From NCBI GenBank assembly GCA_012523135.1, contig JAAYJD010000004.1:1-42816 (forward strand): a stretch of 42,816 nt of DNA, read 5' to 3'. Origin of the DNA: Clostridiaceae bacterium (GTDB taxonomy: Bacteria; Bacillota; Clostridia; Saccharofermentanales; UBA5734). The notes beneath the pieces were generated by a model, which was not told the origin of the DNA, searched no databases, and saw only the letters and a program-made list of their open reading frames with translations. Shown here piece after piece: positions 16,795 through 26,312 of this stretch. Numbering within the stretch: the stretch's first letter is position 1; each line of letters opens with the position of its first letter. Both the position numbers and the translations under genes were made by a program.

Positions 16795-18210
16795 ATGTCT
16801 GACCAACCTGTCCGGCAGCGTGTCTGCATCATCGGGGCCGGTCTGACCGGTCTGGTAACGGCCTGCGCCCTGCAGTCGGCCGGCTACGACGTGGTTCTGA
16901 TCGAATCCACGCGTGCGCCGGGCGGCATGATCGCGTCTTTCCCGGTCGGTACCGAGCGCATCGAGTATATCTATCACCACATCTTTACGCACGACCAGCT
17001 GATTGTGCGCCTGCTCGACACGCTTGGCCTGGCCGACCGGCTGAACTGGTTCAAGCCGGGTGACGCGCTCTTCGCCGATGGCAAGCTGCATCCGTTTTCA
17101 TCCCCGCTCGATTTGCTGCGGCTGCCGATCATGCCGTTCGGGCAGCGCTTCCGGACCGGTTTGGCTGTGCTCCGGGCCGGCCGGCTCAAGGACTGGGAGA
17201 AGCTGGAAACCGAAACAGCTGCCCAGTGGCTGATCCGAAACTGCGGACGCGACGCCTACCGGAAGCTGTGGCAGCCGCTCCTGCGGGCCAAGTTCGACAA
17301 CGATGCGGATACGGTGTCCGCGGTCTGGATCTGGAACAAGTTCAAGTTGCGCGGCCATTCGCGCAGCCGCAAAGCGGGCGCTGAAATGCTGGGCTACCTC
17401 GACGGCAGCTTCGGCCTGATGGTCGATGAATTGGTCACGCGCATCACCGGCCAGGGCGGCCAGATCCTGACCGGTCATACCGCCATGAACATCAGCCAGG
17501 TGTCGGACACGCCGCGCCGTTTTGCGGTCTCGTGCATCCTGGAGAACTGCGCAACCGTCCAGGTCGAGGCCAATGCCGTCGTCGCGACGGTATCCGGCCG
17601 CCAGTTTGCCGGCATGACCACCAGCTTCAACTGGCCGGAAACCTATCTGCGCCAGGTCAACCGGCTTTCCTACAAGGGCAACTTGTGCCTCGTGCTGCGG
17701 CTCAGGGACAGCCTGTCGCCGCACTACTGGACCACCGTCTGCGACAGCCTGCCCTTTGTCGTCGTGGTCGAGCACACGAATCTGGTCGGTCCGCGCGGCT
17801 ACAACGGGCACATCGTCTACCTGTCGCGCTACCTTGACATCTCCGACCCGGTCTGGACCCAGTCCGACGGTGAGATCTACCGCCATTTCATCCAGGGGCT
17901 GAGCAAGCTCTTCCCCCACTTCCATTCAGCCGGGGTCATCGACTGGCGATTGCAGCGTACCCGTTGTGCCCAGCCGGTCATCGGGCGGGGCTATTCCCGT
18001 CAGATGCCGGCCATGGATACACCCTGGCCCGGTGTCAAGCTGGCCGGCATGGCGCAGATCTACCCCGAAGACCGCGGCATGAACTACGCGGTCAGGCTCG
18101 GGCTGGACGCGGCGCGGTCGGTTTTGCGTGACGACCAGGAGCGAGGCGCCGCAGACCCTGGCCAGCACTGCCCCTTTCTGGATGAGCCCGCCCGGGAGGC
18201 TGACCGATGA
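16795..18210 (+). CDS. FAD-dependent oxidoreductase (protoporphyrinogen oxidase/amine oxidase-like)
   Basis: Flavoprotein of 471 residues with an N-terminal Rossmann motif GAGLTG at 14-19, followed by a typical ESTRAPGG segment (about 37-44) that binds the FAD ribose. The C-terminal GVKLAGMAQIYPEDRGMNYA segment resembles the second FAD contact of the amine oxidase/protoporphyrinogen oxidase fold. No haem genes are nearby. Relatives in this subgroup often sit with glycosyltransferases and envelope genes, so a polyprenyl or sugar substrate is possible but unproven. A GGAGGAG site supports the start. Its stop overlaps the next ATG (ATGA), coupling it to the DUF2298 membrane protein. Confidence 0.85.
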   Translation: MSDQPVRQRVCIIGAGLTGLVTACALQSAGYDVVLIESTRAPGGMIASFPVGTERIEYIYHHIFTHDQLIVRLLDTLGLADRLNWFKPGDALFADGKLHPFSSPLDLLRLPIMPFGQRFRTGLAVLRAGRLKDWEKLETETAAQWLIRNCGRDAYRKLWQPLLRAKFDNDADTVSAVWIWNKFKLRGHSRSRKAGAEMLGYLDGSFGLMVDELVTRITGQGGQILTGHTAMNISQVSDTPRRFAVSCILENCATVQVEANAVVATVSGRQFAGMTTSFNWPETYLRQVNRLSYKGNLCLVLRLRDSLSPHYWTTVCDSLPFVVVVEHTNLVGPRGYNGHIVYLSRYLDISDPVWTQSDGEIYRHFIQGLSKLFPHFHSAGVIDWRLQRTRCAQPVIGRGYSRQMPAMDTPWPGVKLAGMAQIYPEDRGMNYAVRLGLDAARSVLRDDQERGAADPGQHCPFLDEPAREADR

Positions 18211-20798
18211 GCCGGCTTGGGCAGAAACTGCTTGGCGCTCCGCATGCCTTGTGGCTGCTGCTCCTGCCGCTGCTGGCTTGTCCGTTCTGGCTGATGCCCC
18301 AGGACGCAGGCCGCATCCTGGGCTGGTGGCTGGCACTCAGCATTCCCGGCTGGCTGGTCTGGCCGGTTGTCTGCCGGCTGCTGCCGGATGGCGACGGCGG
18401 TTACCTGTTGGCGAAAGCGGTGGGCCTGGCCGTCCCCGCCTGGGTTGTCTGGACGTTGTCGTTTACACACCTGCTCCCCTTTGCCCGCTGGGCCATTGTT
18501 GCCGTCCTGCTCCTTGCAGGCGCCGCGGCATGGGTCTGGCGCCGCGGCTGGCAGACGGCTGCGGCATACCTGCGTCAGCCGTCCAGCGTCCGAAAGCTGG
18601 TTGCCGCCGAGTTTTTCTTCCTGTCGGCCCTGATTCTGTGGAGTTTCGCCCGCGGTCTCAAGCCAGAACTGGACAGCCTTGAGAAATTCATGGACCTGGG
18701 CCTGATGAACAGCCTCTGGCGCACGCGCTGGCTGCCGGCCCCGGACATGTGGTTTGCCGGCGGCAGCATCAATTACTACTACTTCGGCCAATATGTCTAC
18801 ACATACCTGGCCAAACTGACCGGCATTCGCCCGGAAATCGCCTATAACCTGGGGATGGCCACCACCTTTGCCATGACGGCGGTATTGGCCTACTCGGCCG
18901 GCAGCCGCCTGTTCCTGCTCCTGCGCCAGGAGAGCCGCTCGTCGGCCCCGGTCTGGGCGACCGTGGCCGGCCTGATCGCTTCCGCCCTGATCAGTGTGGC
19001 CGGCAACGGGCACGCGTTCCTTTACGCAGACGGATCGCCGGGCAAAGCCCTGATGCGCTGGGCGCTGCAGCGCGGCTGGGCCGGGGGTATTGCCGACAAG
19101 GCCTACTGGTTTGCCGACGCGACCCGCTTCATTGGGTACAACCCCGACACGACCGACAAAACCATCCATGAATTCCCTTTCTATTCATTCCTGGTCGCCG
19201 ACCTGCACGCCCACGTGATCAACCTCACGTTCGTGCTGGCGCTGGTCATCCTGATGACCGTCCTGATCGGGCGTGCCCGCCTGCTGCGATCCGCCGCCAG
19301 CTGTCGGGAGATCCAGGACCGGCTGGCCGACAGCGACGACAGCACCTGGCACCGCCAGGAGCTGCAGGGGGTCTGGCAGCGCCTGAAAGACGTGGCGGGC
19401 GATGGCCTGGTCGGGCTGGTCGCCCTGCTGCTGGCCATCTTCATGATGGGCAACTATTGGGATTTCGCCATCTACCTGGCGGTCGCAGCGCTCGTCCTGC
19501 TGCTAATCAACCTCAAGGGGTACGGCAGCCGGATCCGGCCGGCCAGCGTAATCACGCTGTTGCTGCAGGCCGGCCTGCTTCTGGTTCCCTATCTGGCCCT
19601 CAGCCACCCTGTCCTGGCCCTGCTGGGTTTTGCCGGCGTATTGGCGGTCAACAGCTATTTGACCCTGATCTGCGGCGACGCGCTGACCTTGACCGGCGCC
19701 CAGGTCTCCTGGCTGTTCTTCCTCTCCCATGCCCTGGCGCTGCCCTTTAACCTCTCCTTTGAACCGATCGCCAAATCGATCGCCCGCACCGTCCAGTCCA
19801 CGCCCCTGTGGCAGCTGCTGGTCCTGTGGGGACCGCACCTGGCCAGCGGTTTGCTGTTCCTGGCCGTTCTGCTGGCGCTGCACCTGCGTCCGCCCGTGCG
19901 CCGCTTTCCGCCGCCTCCGGACCATGTTCGCAGCGAAAACCGGCCGCTGGCCCGCATGCTTCAACCCTTCACGGCTGCTGACAAGCTCGTGCTGGTGCTG
20001 CTGTTCTGGGGAATCGCCCTGATCGCGCTGCCCGAGCTGGTCTATGTCGTCGACATCTACAGCGGCGATTACAAACGGGCCAATACGATGTTCAAATTCA
20101 CCTACCAGGCTTTTGTGCTGCTGTCGCTGGTCTGGGCGTATGCGATCGTCCGGCTGGCCAGCCTGCCGCAGCGCAGCACGCTGCGCCTGGCAGCCGCTTT
20201 TCTCGTCCTGCTGCTGGTTGTGCCGGCCTGGTATCCTGGCATCGCCACGCGCCAATGGCTTGGCGCGTTCGAGCGCAACCGCTACCAGGGGCTGGATGGC
20301 GCCGCAGTCCTGGCGAGCAAGGATTCGGCCCAGTTGCCCGGACAGGTCAACGGCGAACTGGCCCCGGATGCCGCGGCGATCCGCTGGTTTAACGAGACGG
20401 TTTCCGGCCACCCGGTGATTCTCGAAACATTCGGTGAAAGCTACACCGACTACGGGCGCATCTCCGCGTTCACCGGCCTCCCGACGGTCATGGGCTGGGA
20501 AACGCATGAATGGCTCTGGCGGACCAGCAAGGCCAATCCCAATGCCTATGCCAGCTTTGTCCTGCCGCGCCAGAACGATGTCACAGCCCTGTACACCACG
20601 GATAACCAGGCAGAACGCCGTGACCTGATTGAGCAGTACCAGATCGCCTATATCGTCATCGGGGACCTGGAACGCAACCGCTTCCAGTCAGATCCCCTGC
20701 AGGAAAACAGCCCGAGCCTGGTGCGTGAAGATCTGCTCCAGGAACTCGGGACTGTCGTCTTTCGCGAAGGTTCGCTGTATGTTCTTGCGCTGAATTGA
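18207..20798 (+). CDS. DUF2298 (YYY-motif) polytopic membrane protein
   Basis: Large integral membrane protein of 863 residues with many hydrophobic segments. The family signature is the Tyr triplet at 190-192 (GSINYYYFGQY), preceded by the conserved ELDSLEKFMDLG near 154-165. A second conserved block, ETFGESYTDYGRISAFTG, lies in the C-terminal soluble part. The family is best known from Chloroflexi and archaea. Its shape (multispan N-terminal part, extracytoplasmic C-terminal domain) recalls GT-C glycosyltransferases, but its activity has not been established to my knowledge. GGGAGG precedes the ATG, which overlaps the FAD oxidoreductase stop by 4 bp. It ends 6 bp from the serA stop on the other strand, with no visible terminator. 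Confidence 0.85.
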   Translation: MSRLGQKLLGAPHALWLLLLPLLACPFWLMPQDAGRILGWWLALSIPGWLVWPVVCRLLPDGDGGYLLAKAVGLAVPAWVVWTLSFTHLLPFARWAIVAVLLLAGAAAWVWRRGWQTAAAYLRQPSSVRKLVAAEFFFLSALILWSFARGLKPELDSLEKFMDLGLMNSLWRTRWLPAPDMWFAGGSINYYYFGQYVYTYLAKLTGIRPEIAYNLGMATTFAMTAVLAYSAGSRLFLLLRQESRSSAPVWATVAGLIASALISVAGNGHAFLYADGSPGKALMRWALQRGWAGGIADKAYWFADATRFIGYNPDTTDKTIHEFPFYSFLVADLHAHVINLTFVLALVILMTVLIGRARLLRSAASCREIQDRLADSDDSTWHRQELQGVWQRLKDVAGDGLVGLVALLLAIFMMGNYWDFAIYLAVAALVLLLINLKGYGSRIRPASVITLLLQAGLLLVPYLALSHPVLALLGFAGVLAVNSYLTLICGDALTLTGAQVSWLFFLSHALALPFNLSFEPIAKSIARTVQSTPLWQLLVLWGPHLASGLLFLAVLLALHLRPPVRRFPPPPDHVRSENRPLARMLQPFTAADKLVLVLLFWGIALIALPELVYVVDIYSGDYKRANTMFKFTYQAFVLLSLVWAYAIVRLASLPQRSTLRLAAAFLVLLLVVPAWYPGIATRQWLGAFERNRYQGLDGAAVLASKDSAQLPGQVNGELAPDAAAIRWFNETVSGHPVILETFGESYTDYGRISAFTGLPTVMGWETHEWLWRTSKANPNAYASFVLPRQNDVTALYTTDNQAERRDLIEQYQIAYIVIGDLERNRFQSDPLQENSPSLVREDLLQELGTVVFREGSLYVLALN

Positions 20799-20804
20799 CT
20801 AAGG

Positions 20805-22421
20805 TTAGTTGCCGATCGTGCTGAAATTCAGAACAGACACCCTGAGCACGCCGGTGATGCCGCGCAGGGCGTCCAGTGTTTTTTCGTCGACCGGCGAGTC
20901 GATCGACAGGAAGCTCTGAGCACGCATCTTGTCTTTTTTACGGCTCCAGTGCATGGTGGCGATGTTGATATCCTGCTGACCGAGCAGCGTGCCGACGCGG
21001 CCGATAATGCCCGGTACGTCGTTGTTCTGCATCGCCAGGACGAAGGGCGACAGCTCGAAGTCCATGTGATAGCCGAAAAAATCGACCAGGACCTCGGTAT
21101 CTTTGCCGAAAACCGTACCCGACACCGACAGGGTCTTTTCTTCGGAGAAAAAGCGGACAGTCACCAGGTTGGTGTATTTTTCCAGGTGGGTCGTCTTGCT
21201 TTCCACGACCTCAACGCCCATGTTGGTCAGATTCTGCTTGACGTTGACATAGCTGATCCGTTCATTGGTGATCGTCGACAGGAAGCCTTTGAGGACAGAA
21301 AGGGTCAGAAAACTGGTTTCCTTGCTTGCCAGTTCGCCCGAAAAGATGATTTCGACCTTCTTGATGCGGGCGGTTTCGGCCTGGTAGTAGATGGCGCCCA
21401 GCTTCTCGCACAGGCTGAGATAGGGCTTGAGCTCCGCCAGGCTGCCGCTGACGGCCGGCATGTTGACCGCGCAGACCAGTTCGCCGTGCAAAGCCCTGGC
21501 GACCAGCTCGGTGACGGTCGAGCCGACATTGGCATTGGCTTCGTGCGTCGATGCGCCCAGGTGGGGCGTGATAATGCAGTTGGGCAGATCCAGCAGGGCA
21601 TTATGGTACTGCTGTTCACCCGGTTTCTTATCGTAACTGGGCTCCTGGTCCAGAACGTCGATGGCAGCACCGGCGACCTGGCCGGACTTCAGGGCGTCAC
21701 AAAGGGCAGCCTCGTTGACCAGTCCGCCGCGCGCGGCGTTGACGATGCGAACGCCTGGTTTGCAGCGGGCCAGGCGGTCGCTGTCGAGCATGTTGTAGGT
21801 TTCCTTGGTTTTTGGGGTGTGCAGGGTGATCAGGTCCGCTTGGCGCAGCAGGTCGTCCAGGTGATCGCAGCGGGTCACGCCCAGCTTGTCGAAACGCTCA
21901 GCGGGAATATACGGGTCATAGGCCACCACCGTCATGCCGATTCCTCTGAGTTTGCGGGCGACGATCGAACCGATCCGGCCCATGCCGATCACACCGGCCA
22001 CCTTGCCCTCCAGCTCATGGCCGATCATGCGGCCGCGCCGGAAGTCATCCTGGTGTGCGGCTGAGTTGGCCAGGCAGATGTTGCGGAAAATGGCAAAAGC
22101 CAATCCGACCGCCAGCTCACCTGCCGCCATGATGTTGGCCTCCGGCGTGTTGACGACGATGATGCCTTTTTCTGTGCAGGCGGGCACATCGATGTTGTCT
22201 GTGCCGTTACCCGCGCGTCCGACCACCTTGAGCTGTTCGGCATGGGCGAGCAAACTGCGGTTGACTTGCGTGACACTGCGGACGATCAGCGCATCGTAAG
22301 AAACGACAGCCTGCTCGATCTCCGTCTGGCTAAGGCCAAGCGTCTCATCAACAGCAAAGCCCTGCTCCCGCAGGTAGGCGACCGCATCCGCGGCTATTTT
22401 TTCCGTAATCAGGATTCTCAT
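20805..22421 (-). CDS. serA: D-3-phosphoglycerate dehydrogenase
   Basis: First step of serine synthesis: oxidises 3-phosphoglycerate to 3-phosphohydroxypyruvate with NAD. At 538 residues it is the long form. The substrate and Rossmann domains have GMGRIG for NAD, NAARGG with the catalytic Arg, and ITPHLGAS with the catalytic His. An intervening ASB domain and a C-terminal ACT domain over the last ~75 residues follow; in other bacteria these mediate serine feedback. AAGGGGGA precedes the ATG. It is a single-gene unit converging on the DUF2298 operon. No serC or serB is in the window. Confidence 0.97.
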   Translation of the reverse strand: MRILITEKIAADAVAYLREQGFAVDETLGLSQTEIEQAVVSYDALIVRSVTQVNRSLLAHAEQLKVVGRAGNGTDNIDVPACTEKGIIVVNTPEANIMAAGELAVGLAFAIFRNICLANSAAHQDDFRRGRMIGHELEGKVAGVIGMGRIGSIVARKLRGIGMTVVAYDPYIPAERFDKLGVTRCDHLDDLLRQADLITLHTPKTKETYNMLDSDRLARCKPGVRIVNAARGGLVNEAALCDALKSGQVAGAAIDVLDQEPSYDKKPGEQQYHNALLDLPNCIITPHLGASTHEANANVGSTVTELVARALHGELVCAVNMPAVSGSLAELKPYLSLCEKLGAIYYQAETARIKKVEIIFSGELASKETSFLTLSVLKGFLSTITNERISYVNVKQNLTNMGVEVVESKTTHLEKYTNLVTVRFFSEEKTLSVSGTVFGKDTEVLVDFFGYHMDFELSPFVLAMQNNDVPGIIGRVGTLLGQQDINIATMHWSRKKDKMRAQSFLSIDSPVDEKTLDALRGITGVLRVSVLNFSTIGN

Positions 22422-22534: not shown

Positions 22535-22566
22535 AAAAATACCCGCCGCAGGTCCTGCGGCGGGTA
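22535..22566 (-). terminator. terminator of the PP2C-like/LysM gene
   Basis: A 12-bp near-perfect stem (TACCCGCCGCAG / CTGCGGCGGGTA) with a 3-base loop is followed on the minus strand by TTTTT. It lies ~33 bp past the gene's stop and insulates it from serA, whose start region fills the rest of the 22422-22598 gap. Confidence 0.92.
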
Positions 22567-22598
22567 CATGGCTGAACAGATGAAAGCGAAGGGCCGCC

Positions 22599-24167
22599 TT
22601 ATGGCTTATTCGGGATCTTGAGCACATCGCCGACGCGGATGCTTCCCTCTAACTTGACATCATCACCGTCACGGATCAGCTTCATGCCGTTGGCTTCGGC
22701 AATCAGATTCATGTGTTCGTAATCGCCATTTCCGTAATACTTCATGGCCAGACCCCAGATCGTGTCATTGGCCACGACCGTGTGCGTCGTCATGATGCCG
22801 GGATCGCTGGCTGTCGTCGTGGTCGTCGTGGTCGTGCTTTCGCTGGTCGTCGTCGAGGAGCTTCCACTTGTCGTCTGGCTGGAGATGGTCGTTCCTGACG
22901 AAGTCTGACCCGGCGTTACCTGGCCGGTCGCCTGTGTCGTCGGGGTCGTGGTCGTCGTGCCCGGCTTGTCCTTGTCCTTGAACAGCATGCTGTAGATCAG
23001 GAACAGGCAGGCCACGCAGATCGCGGCGATAATCACATAGAAGGCGATCCGCCGCCCTTTCCCGTACGTGTCAATCTCATCGCCGAAGCTGTCGTCTTCG
23101 TCATCGAACGTTTCTTCGCCCTGTTCCGGCAGCCGGCTGCTGGCCGGCTTGTAGGGAACGGGCTGGGGGTGCGCCGCTGCCGCCGGGCGCTCTGTTTTCC
23201 TGGGAGGTATGAAGTCCAGATCCGCCTCTTCGGCTTCATGGGGCAGGTCCGCGACAGGATTCTTCGGTTCAGCGGCAGGCTGGGGGCGGTTGCGGTTGAG
23301 GGACGGGAATGCCGCGGGGACAGACGCGCCGGCCACGACGGCTGTATCGGCATGGCTGCGGGTCATGCCAAGTCTGGCTGTGCGGTCGGCGCTGGTGATG
23401 TTCTCGACAAAGCCAATCATGAACTGCATCGGGGTGCCGGGCAGCTTGGCCGCTGCGGCCGTGATGATCATGCCGGCCGCGTCTGACTGGTCATCTGCCT
23501 CGTAGAGCATGCGCAGAATCTCGCGCTGACCGAGCGCTTCCATCACCTCGCGGTTGCAGGTGATCAGGCAGTCGTCCATCTGCAGCTGGGCGATGTTGGA
23601 ATAACGCACGGTTCCGGCAACCCCGGCACAGTAGACATCCAGCCCGCTGATCGGCTTGCCGGCATAGTCGATGGCCTCGAGCGGGTAATCATCCGATGTC
23701 AGCGGATAGAGGACATCCCCGCGGTAGAGGTAGGCGCATCCGTTGCCCATCGTGACCGCCGCCATTTCAGAGTCCCTGACCAGGATACCGGCGAAATAGG
23801 GCTGGCGCATGCCGTCATGCTTGAGCGCGATGCGGCCCACCACAGAAACGGCGCATTCTGCCAGCTCGTTGATCTCGGCATCAATGTTGTGTCCCGGCTG
23901 TTTGACCTCGGTCATGATCTTCTCGAGCGGTTTTTTCACTGGGCTGACAGCGCTGTCATCCGTTGCGCCGCCTGTCAGATGGGCGAAGACCGCGTAGAAA
24001 AAGCCGCGTTCTTCGCGGTCCAGCGTGACATCCGCCGCCCGGTGCTCCCGGCGTCCGGAAAGTCGGCCGTCAAGGTAAAACCCATCGGTTGCCCCGGTTG
24101 TTGGATAATAACGCGCGGTGACGGTCGTGGCAATGCGGGTAATAGCAGCTTTATTTGATTTTGCCAT
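22599..24167 (-). CDS. PP2C-like pseudophosphatase - transmembrane - LysM protein
   Basis: A 522-residue predicted bitopic membrane protein. Residues ~1-265 follow the order of PP2C/PPM phosphatases: an AVFAHLTGG stretch at 59-67 (family D-G-x-G-G), MGNGCAYLYRG at 140-150 (family GDSRaYl), DDCLITCNRE at 198-207 (family D-lll-cSDG) and GTPMQFMIGF at 244-253 (family DN-t). The metal-binding Asp residues of these motifs appear replaced, so it is probably not an active phosphatase. A Pro/acidic linker, one membrane helix (~374-396), a Thr/Ser-rich stretch (~403-455) and a C-terminal LysM domain (~461-518) follow. LysM binds peptidoglycan, implying cytoplasm-in, wall-out topology. AGGAGG supports the start. 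Monocistronic, with its own terminator. Confidence 0.72.
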   Translation of the reverse strand: MAKSNKAAITRIATTVTARYYPTTGATDGFYLDGRLSGRREHRAADVTLDREERGFFYAVFAHLTGGATDDSAVSPVKKPLEKIMTEVKQPGHNIDAEINELAECAVSVVGRIALKHDGMRQPYFAGILVRDSEMAAVTMGNGCAYLYRGDVLYPLTSDDYPLEAIDYAGKPISGLDVYCAGVAGTVRYSNIAQLQMDDCLITCNREVMEALGQREILRMLYEADDQSDAAGMIITAAAAKLPGTPMQFMIGFVENITSADRTARLGMTRSHADTAVVAGASVPAAFPSLNRNRPQPAAEPKNPVADLPHEAEEADLDFIPPRKTERPAAAAHPQPVPYKPASSRLPEQGEETFDDEDDSFGDEIDTYGKGRRIAFYVIIAAICVACLFLIYSMLFKDKDKPGTTTTTPTTQATGQVTPGQTSSGTTISSQTTSGSSSTTTSESTTTTTTTTASDPGIMTTHTVVANDTIWGLAMKYYGNGDYEHMNLIAEANGMKLIRDGDDVKLEGSIRVGDVLKIPNKP

Positions 24168-24254
24168 GCTGTGGCCTCCTGTTTTGTCATCAGGCCGGCA
24201 TCCCTGTCCGCCTTGCGGGCGGATGTGCTCGCGCCTGTTATGCGTACCCAGATT

Positions 24255-24299: not shown

Positions 24300-24319
24300 T
24301 TTCAGGTGCTTTCAGGTGC
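24300..24319. repeat. 10-bp perfect tandem repeat
   Basis: TTTCAGGTGC is present twice in direct succession in the region between the divergent LysM and RCC1 genes. Confidence 0.8.
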
Positions 24320-24392
24320 TTCCTGGCCCGGCCCGCATGTGCTTGTCGGCCACCTGCTTTTTGTGTATCATGATGCCAAGGATGGTATTACC

Positions 24393-26312
24393 ATGCGCAC
24401 AATAGCCGCAACCCGCTTCCTTTACGTTCGATACAAGGCCCTGACCCTCTGCCTGCTGATAGCCCTGGCTTTCCTGCGGCCCGTTGCCGTATGCGCACAG
24501 ACAGCGTCCGGGGACATGATCCGCCCGGTTCAGCTGGCCGCCGGTTCCAGTCACAGCGCGATGCTTCTCCAGGATGGTTCACTGTGGCTCTGGGGTGACA
24601 ACACTTACGGACAGCTCGGGTTTGCCGGCGAGGATTATGTCGACGCGCCCAGGCGCCTGCTTCTGGCGGGAAAAGCGGCTGCGGTCAGCCTGGGTGCCAG
24701 CCATACGCTTATCCTGACCGACAGCGGCGTTGTCTATGCCGTCGGGCGCAACACGTTCGGCCAGCTGGGCGACGGCACGACGATTCAGTCGGAAAAGCCG
24801 GTTCTCGTTGCGGGCTTGCCGCCTGTCAAGTCGATTGCGGCCGGCTCTTTGCATTCCCTGGCGCTGGCCCAAGACGGCAGCGTCTGGGGCTGGGGCGACA
24901 ACAGCCATTTTCAGCTGGGCGAACCATATGGCGAAGCCATCAAGGACACCCAGGGCAGCACGGTCGGTTACCGGCAGAAAGCGCCGGTGAAAATCGTGTT
25001 TGAAAAAGCCGCGGCCATCGCCGCTGGCGGCCAGTTTTCCCTTTACCTGCGCCAGGACGGCCAGCTGTACGCCTGGGGCGACAACAGCCGCGGCCAGCTG
25101 GGCGACGGCACCGTCCAGACGCGCTCCAGGCCGGCTGCCGTGGTCGGGCTCGCGCAGGTGCGCACCGTCGCGGCCGGTTACCAGCATGTGCTGGCTGTAA
25201 CCAGCCAGAACGGCCAGGACAGTCTGTATACCTGGGGGGACCATTCGTCCGGGCAGCTCGGTCTGGCCGGCATGCCCGCCGGCAATGCCATGCAGATGCT
25301 GCCGCGGCAGGTTGACTTGAGCACCTACACGGGCGGCGAACCCGCTCAGATCGGCCAGATCAGCGCAGGTTACGCGCACGCGGCCGCAGCCGTGTACGAT
25401 CCGGACAAAACGCGGCAGCGCCTCCTGGTCTGGGGGGACAACGCTTACGGGCAGCTGGGCCTTGGCCATACTCGCCTTCAGACGCAGCCGCAAGCAGTCA
25501 GTGCCCGCTACAACGACCAGGTCAGCGAAATCTTTCTGCCTTTCGACGCCCTGGCCTGCGGCGGTTTCCATACGCTGGTCTACAGCAGCAAGGGCTTGCT
25601 GGCTGCCAGCGGGCTCGGTGACAAGGGACAGCTCGGCACCTTTTCCGTCGTCAACCGCAATCGGCTGACATCTGTTCAGATCCCCGACCAGATCAAGCCT
25701 GGCTGGACAGCCGGTGCCACGCCGTCCATCCGACGCGATGCGTCGGGTTCGGTCCATGTACGCTGGCCAATGGCCGAGGACAATATCCGGCTGGCCGGAT
25801 ATACCGTTCGCTTCCTTTGGTCCGACGGCTCTTCCCTGACTCGCTCAGCCGGCCTGGACCAGGAGATAAGCCTGATGGAGACCGAACTGCCGCCATCTTA
25901 TGCTCAACTTGCCCTCGAAGCGGTGGTCTATGCCTTTGACGAGATCAGCCGGCCGGCCCCTCTTGATTCGCTGAGCAGCATCGCCGCCATCCTGCTGCCT
26001 GAAGACGCATCTGACCTGGCTGCTGAAGTCTTTTTCCCCGACCGTCACGAACCTGTCCCCCTGGCTGAGCACGCGCAGCATAACTGGCGGCCACCCGGGA
26101 CCGGCCTGCTGGAGCCGCTGGACGTGCCCTGGGATGTCACGGCAATCTATGGCGCCGGCGCTTTGCCGGACGCACCCGACTACCGGTTGCTCAAGCTGCT
26201 CGCCGCAGCCGCTTTGGTCTGGCTGCTCATTTTGCTGCTGTTTTGGCGGATCAAAAGCCGCACGCACGACAGGCAATCCCTGTTTCAGGTTATGGTCCGG
26301 CGGATCCGCTAG
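24393..26312 (+). CDS. secreted RCC1-repeat beta-propeller with C-terminal membrane anchor
   Basis: A 639-residue protein. An N-terminal signal peptide (hydrophobic core ~16-33, likely cleavage after VCA near 35) is followed by seven RCC1-type repeats of the form WGDNxxGQLG, spanning to about residue 420; these should form a seven-bladed propeller. A region without clear motifs (possibly fibronectin-like, ~450-585) follows, and a C-terminal membrane helix (~599-620) ends in a basic tail. It is thus displayed outside the membrane. The ligand is unknown; RCC1 propellers are usually protein-binding. I chose the ATG at 24393 because AAGGA lies ~10 bases upstream and the signal peptide starts there. 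An ATG at 24306 in frame would bury the signal. It is divergent from the PP2C-like/LysM gene. Confidence 0.85.
   Translation: MRTIAATRFLYVRYKALTLCLLIALAFLRPVAVCAQTASGDMIRPVQLAAGSSHSAMLLQDGSLWLWGDNTYGQLGFAGEDYVDAPRRLLLAGKAAAVSLGASHTLILTDSGVVYAVGRNTFGQLGDGTTIQSEKPVLVAGLPPVKSIAAGSLHSLALAQDGSVWGWGDNSHFQLGEPYGEAIKDTQGSTVGYRQKAPVKIVFEKAAAIAAGGQFSLYLRQDGQLYAWGDNSRGQLGDGTVQTRSRPAAVVGLAQVRTVAAGYQHVLAVTSQNGQDSLYTWGDHSSGQLGLAGMPAGNAMQMLPRQVDLSTYTGGEPAQIGQISAGYAHAAAAVYDPDKTRQRLLVWGDNAYGQLGLGHTRLQTQPQAVSARYNDQVSEIFLPFDALACGGFHTLVYSSKGLLAASGLGDKGQLGTFSVVNRNRLTSVQIPDQIKPGWTAGATPSIRRDASGSVHVRWPMAEDNIRLAGYTVRFLWSDGSSLTRSAGLDQEISLMETELPPSYAQLALEAVVYAFDEISRPAPLDSLSSIAAILLPEDASDLAAEVFFPDRHEPVPLAEHAQHNWRPPGTGLLEPLDVPWDVTAIYGAGALPDAPDYRLLKLLAAAALVWLLILLLFWRIKSRTHDRQSLFQVMVRRIR

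Follow-up and report, generated by a model that had tools for sequence, protein, structure and literature searches.

The window, a 42,816-nucleotide stretch of DNA from a Clostridiaceae bacterium, carries a gene on its minus strand (22599–24167) whose product is probably a cell-wall-tethered PPM pseudophosphatase, a binding or regulatory module that would serve as a wall-linked adaptor or regulator. The open reading frame starts with ATG and comprises 522 codons (522 aa). Direct reading of the sequence located a ribosome-binding-site-like AGGAGG (24175–24180, minus strand) 7 nt 5' of the ATG. An intrinsic terminator with a 13-pair stem and a TTTTTC tail (22539–22567, minus strand) lies directly 3' of the gene and before serA, and with this hairpin between the two genes the pseudophosphatase gene looks monocistronic. 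A promoter-like match at 24133–24105 falls within the gene and was left out of the interpretation. The host genome (3.42 Mb, about 97.5% complete) encodes the protein once, and the remaining matches to it were weak.

Domain organization and membrane topology

Five parts of the protein, all encoded on the minus strand, were delimited. The PPM/PP2C-fold domain, assigned by homology, fold and lost residues and devoid of catalytic metal ligands, covers residues ~6–260 (23388–24152). It is followed by an acidic, Pro/Ala-rich linker, predicted to be cytoplasmic (residues 261–373; 23049–23387), which is weakly conserved and has a dN above those of the flanking domains. Hydropathy analysis revealed one strongly hydrophobic segment (residues ~374–396, mean hydropathy 2.83), and the single membrane helix was placed at residues 374–396 (22980–23048), with GKGRR directly before it. 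A Thr/Ser-rich outer linker (residues 397–459; 22791–22979), recognized from the protein sequence, leads to the LysM domain at residues 460–519 (22611–22790).

This organization is shared by the family, as 62 complete non-redundant members contained the PPM domain, then one hydrophobic helix, then a LysM detected by the family profile. Lys and Arg together were richer on the N-terminal side of the helix in 51 of these 62 proteins and equal on both sides in nine, with means of 4.3 versus 1.8. The positive-inside bias and the lack of a further hydrophobic segment before the domain argue for an N-in, C-out orientation, in which the PPM domain would be cytoplasmic and the LysM outside. The single helix and outer LysM proposed in an earlier sequence-only reading of this DNA are supported.

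The LysM of the window protein scored 20.0 bits against a Pfam (PF01476) cut-off of 20.9, and matched the family LysM profile with an E value of 5e-12, the 12 seeds of this profile being LysM stretches from the family itself, close relatives of the window protein among them. Independent Pfam matches over the cut-off were obtained for L051 and L061 (orthologues, 33–34 bits), L075, L077, L079, L080, L082, L170, L171 and L180. In genus g16, a bacterial SH3 domain occupies the place of the LysM with the rest of the protein retained (L104:7655-9571, SH3_3, 56.6 bits), and tails similar to that of L104 are also found in L212–L214, making four g16 genomes altogether. The C-terminus in the large genus g29 is, by eye, a divergent LysM under Pfam detection. 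By analogy, the LysM, or the SH3 domain in g16, would reach the cell wall and its peptidoglycan.

The N-terminal domain has PPM/PP2C ancestry

Residues 1–259 of the window protein gave no Pfam match, no score passing the cut-offs of PF00481, PF13672 or PF07228, and the N-terminal domains of 18 close orthologues were likewise without a match. A narrow profile of 18 sequences (A2) missed PP2Cs both in a PDB search and by hhalign. A wider profile (A3) matched solved PP2Cs in the PDB, namely tPphA (E 6.5e-8), PstP (2.8e-5) and Stp1 (1.7e-4). Since A3 contains relatives that are themselves PP2C-like, the test was rerun on a profile limited to order members, alongside shuffled controls.

The order-only profile, built from 25 order members, retrieved intact PP2Cs of other Clostridia, the best being L170 (E 3.6e-10), with L168 at 3.7e-9 (E values at a database size of 180,000). 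When it was compared by hhalign with 12 intact PP2Cs, the alignment spanned 255 columns at 98.3% and E 1.4e-14, and its score of 103.7 stood against scores of at most 21.9 for the column-shuffled controls (n = 30). The relatives L078, L171 and L170 are intermediates that attain the Pfam PP2C cut-offs.

An AlphaFold model made from eight sequences only was of low confidence (mean pLDDT 43.9, pTM 0.50). With this model, the top Foldseek matches listed were all PPM proteins (E about 1e-6), as were 50 of the 50 VIA-align matches listed (Z 9.7, rmsd 4.6, 194 residues), which span model residues 9–257. The model being weak, the fold assignment relies mainly on the profiles, and the structure matches are taken as supporting evidence only. 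Judged from these sequence relationships, the N-terminal domain of the window protein has the PPM/PP2C fold and ancestry, in agreement with the earlier assignment of the N-terminal ~265 residues.

Catalytic metal ligands are lost throughout the order

The PP2C motifs could be followed along the domain: ATDGFYLDGR corresponds to NEDxFYxNGR, VFAHLTGG to VADGMGG, GNGCAYLYR to GDSRAYLYR, LITCNREV to LLLCSDGL and PGTPMQ to xxDNIT. Relative to L170, the Asp of GDSR has become Asn in the window protein, that of SDG Arg and that of DN Thr, and the Asp of DGMGG is replaced by Ala or His depending on the alignment (Ala, with a neighbouring His, when aligned to L170). The Asp of the NED motif (D28), absent from the list of the sequence-only reading, is retained in the window protein and in 41 of the 45 order members compared.

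Among these 45 members, the DGMGG (ADG) Asp and the SDG Asp were found in none, and Lys or Arg took the place of the latter in 36. The GDSR Asp was found in three, all loci of genus g14 (L053, L054 and L059), and the DN Asp in none, with one other alignment giving L104 an Asp at this column. Two further residues, D199 and D226, hardly vary; the former lines up with the 'GD' ahead of the LLLCSDG strand in ordinary PP2Cs, which is no metal ligand. The recurrence of the ligand losses across the order indicates that they are not a quirk of a single sequence. The earlier claim that the metal-binding Asp of each named motif is replaced was therefore confirmed, four being gone in the window protein with order-wide losses. 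The two outcomes that would have contradicted that reading, a fold unrelated to PPM and Asp residues present in the orthologues, were checked, and the pseudophosphatase claim was left unrefuted.

The Lys/Arg at the column of window residue R206, where the SDG Asp would stand, amounts to a swap of charge at the metal site and may be selected.

Distribution and selection

The N-terminal domain is present in 21 of the 23 genomes of the family, and the gene in 176/188 genomes and 30/30 genera of the order, usually as one copy per genome. Distant full-length relatives occur across many families in a class sample of 393 genomes. A phylum sample of 398 genomes gave no match besides the window genome at E 1e-20, a strict cut-off. 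As nearly all order members retain the gene, the dead enzyme probably has another job.

Between related genomes, the dN/dS of the PPM domain was 0.035–0.124, values that are rough because dS is near saturation in some pairs. It was below that of the linkers in most pairs and below that of the LysM in several, so that among the three parts it generally ranked last or close to last, and the domain contains the invariant stretches RYSNIA, GQ and DQ. By these substitution rates the gene is under strong purifying selection, and the constraint on the PPM domain is unlike that of a domain that merely lost function.

Probable origin from a wall-anchored phosphatase

L170 (G319), from another family of the class, has the full set of five Asp, combines a single helix with two LysM, and scores above the Pfam cut-offs for PP2C (62.9 bits) and LysM (76.5 bits); with all five Asp present it is probably an active phosphatase. 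In other Clostridia this architecture occurs with sites that have decayed in part, and in some relatives outside the order three or four of the Asp remain. The GDSR Asp is gone from all sampled LysM-bearing members except L170, L053, L054 and L059, and the losses of the other Asp vary.

In a tree made without the catalytic columns, the intact forms are basal, and L170 together with the soluble intact L168/L169 adjoins a 52-row clade of decayed forms (support 98). The order members group in a single clade (support 100) that sits on a long stem. The minimum number of state changes per Asp position was 5 to 9, and 29 of the 74 inner branches are weak, which leaves the exact order of losses unsettled. 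The sequences read as a stepwise decay of an active wall-anchored phosphatase, with L170 as the likely ancestor type.

A separate group of membrane PP2Cs (L175 and L183) has GNAR/GSAR and SNG for GDSR and SDG and lacks a LysM. Membrane PP2Cs of Clostridia thus seem to have undergone active-site decay on more than one occasion.

Genomic context

The divergent neighbour of the gene encodes an RCC1-repeat protein (24306–26312, plus strand; Pfam RCC1, 212 bits), probably a surface-anchored beta-propeller. The protein has a signal-like stretch at its N-terminus and a hydrophobic helix at its C-terminus, and its gene adjoins the pseudophosphatase gene in four other loci. On the 3' side lie serA (20805–22421, minus strand; identified by Pfam) and genes for a DUF2298 membrane protein (18207–20798) and an amine-oxidase-like protein (16795–18210). 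Members of this set are found near the gene in several relatives, with no obvious functional link.

Comparison of 35 neighbourhoods revealed no partner gene. Housekeeping genes flank the gene, and which ones they are varies among clades; they include serA (by Pfam) and alaS, radA-ispD and a CCA-adding-like gene (named by sequence reading). Because the neighbours vary in this way and a terminator follows the gene, gene order gives no partner.

Elsewhere in the window genome, an intact PrpC (L083) is encoded beside a PASTA kinase (C93), and further kinases are present; no evidence linked the pseudophosphatase gene to this pair. A kinase/phosphatase network of the PASTA-kinase kind controls wall hydrolysis in C. 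difficile (PMC8262956), and a Ser/Thr kinase/phosphatase network acting on the cell wall is plausible as the most natural partner candidate. The sequence-only reading had suggested scaffolding or sensing for a Ser/Thr kinase as a possible role. It had also considered a SpoIIE-like pathway, and this part was not supported: the window genome, about 97.5% complete, showed no SpoIIE, giving weak cross-matches to its two ordinary PP2Cs only, and the nearest relatives of the window protein are PP2Cs of the PrpC/Stp1 type.

A second membrane PP2C of the window genome (P0002; G000:C18, L210:435-2440) has GNSR for GDSR, lacks a LysM and begins at the end of an LCP (LytR-CpsA-Psr) gene. The same pair of LCP and membrane-PP2C genes was found in L026, L206, L208 and L209, with the sites intact in L206 and L208 and partly decayed in L026 and L209. 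This pairing is a conserved link of a phosphatase-like membrane protein with a wall-polymer ligase.

Proposed function and alternatives

In the wall-linked adaptor or regulator that we regard as probable, the N-terminal PP2C-like domain would lie inside the cell with its catalytic-metal Asp gone, and, the Asp that hold the metals being lost, it should not dephosphorylate anything. The single helix would span the membrane, and the Thr/Ser-rich stalk would bear the LysM, which should bind the glycan strands of peptidoglycan. Its ancestor would be an active membrane phosphatase with this same layout, of the L170 type, whose metal sites disappeared step by step, and the dead domain would have been retained through partner binding. 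A cytoplasmic partner may then be positioned or switched depending on the site at which the LysM contacts the wall, or on whether it does so at all. The lack of phosphatase activity, the binding of peptidoglycan and the adaptor function of the window protein are all expected by analogy.

A tentative possibility is a counterpart of TAB1, that is, a LysM receptor in which the dead PPM domain would hold a membrane Ser/Thr kinase (e.g., PrkC), or the substrates of that kinase, and switch it in response to the state of the wall. If this were true, the protein would be a core, order-wide wall-sensing receptor born from a killed wall-anchored phosphatase.

It is also possible, though we hold it rather unlikely, that the protein is a phosphoprotein reader or decoy whose dead pocket still binds phospho-Ser/Thr proteins and keeps the intact PrpC from reaching them. 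The Lys/Arg that prevails at the SDG Asp column of the order could replace the charge of the metal, and both an intact PrpC and a PASTA kinase are encoded in the genome. However, these basic residues are not universal (L, Y, S, C and N are also found), and the region from GDSR to SDG, which holds the substrate-binding flap, has ~62 residues versus 75 in L170.

The exchange of LysM and SH3_3 on the outside of a constant layout, together with neighbourhoods that show no partner gene, would suit a mere tether, a mechanical link between membrane and wall in which the PPM domain would do no more than provide a stable anchor in the cytoplasm, with no particular partner to bind. This is doubtful, since constraint is usually strongest in the PPM domain (dN/dS about 0.04–0.12), and its long invariant stretches exceed the needs of an inert plug.

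That the protein is still an enzyme, with an active site rearranged around other acidic residues, appears very improbable. The retention of D28, the near-invariance of D199 and D226 and the relatives outside the order that retain several of the five Asp would be in line with it, but the three best-defined metal ligands (DGMGG, SDG and DN) are lost in the order, and D199 matches a non-ligand residue of ordinary PP2Cs. An accidental likeness of the N-terminal domain to PPM proteins, which the missing Pfam match and the failure of profile A2 to find PP2Cs might suggest, is hardly credible given the order-only profile with its shuffled controls, the PDB profile matches and the intermediates L078, L171 and L170 at Pfam level.

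Comparison with known systems

Eukaryotic pseudokinases and pseudophosphatases have been studied in depth. For bacteria, to our knowledge, hardly any PPM pseudophosphatase other than RssB is known. In the family described here, intact wall-anchored (L170), partly decayed and fully dead, order-wide forms coexist in one layout, a series that lets one ask why a bacterial phosphatase domain persists after catalysis is lost. It also opens the question of a peptidoglycan input to Ser/Thr phospho-signalling other than the PASTA kinases. The dead forms are likely annotated only as LysM or hypothetical proteins, as their domain has no Pfam match.

The PP2Cs of the PrpC/Stp1/PstP type (PF00481, PF13672) have the fold and the motif order in common with the window protein, and the matches of its family include PrpC of the same genome (L083) and the solved PstP, Stp1 and tPphA. 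The window protein differs from them in lacking the metal ligands, in its outer LysM and in having no adjacent kinase gene; PstP is likewise a membrane protein (PMC12088040). L170 has the same domain order and differs by its five intact Asp and two LysM. SpoIIE resembles the window protein as a membrane protein with a PPM fold, but has a multi-pass N-terminal membrane region, a C-terminal active phosphatase and a role in sporulation, whereas the window protein has a single helix and no PF07228 match.

In PASTA-domain PP2Cs and kinases, a single helix connects a cytoplasmic Ser/Thr phospho-signalling domain with a wall-binding module on the outside (PMC12088040). They share this helix-joined layout with the window protein, with PASTA in place of LysM and with catalytic domains. 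The domain partners named in a survey of bacterial PP2Cs are Pkinase, PASTA, FHA and others, LysM being unmentioned in its text (PMC12088040), and the literature searched, whose coverage was partial, yielded no paper describing a PP2C-LysM protein. Within that coverage, the earlier statement that no system of PP2C-helix-LysM architecture has been described still stands.

The E. coli RssB has a PPM pseudophosphatase domain that lost its activity and serves as a dedicated adaptor (PMC12143880). RssB is a soluble protein that has a receiver domain and delivers sigma-S, with neither membrane helix nor LysM; Pfam found no receiver domain in the window protein, whose PPM domain, unlike that of RssB, begins at residue ~6. 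TAB1 and PHLPP2 are PPM pseudophosphatases with non-catalytic roles (PMC12002173), and differ as eukaryotic proteins with one metal site kept and with other partners and domains. Judged from its sequence, the window protein appears to be of the same kind as TAB1, PHLPP2 and RssB, having a PPM fold without catalytic residues that is retained by selection. The best reading is that, as a PPM pseudophosphatase, it belongs to a known kind, and that its wall-anchored architecture is new.
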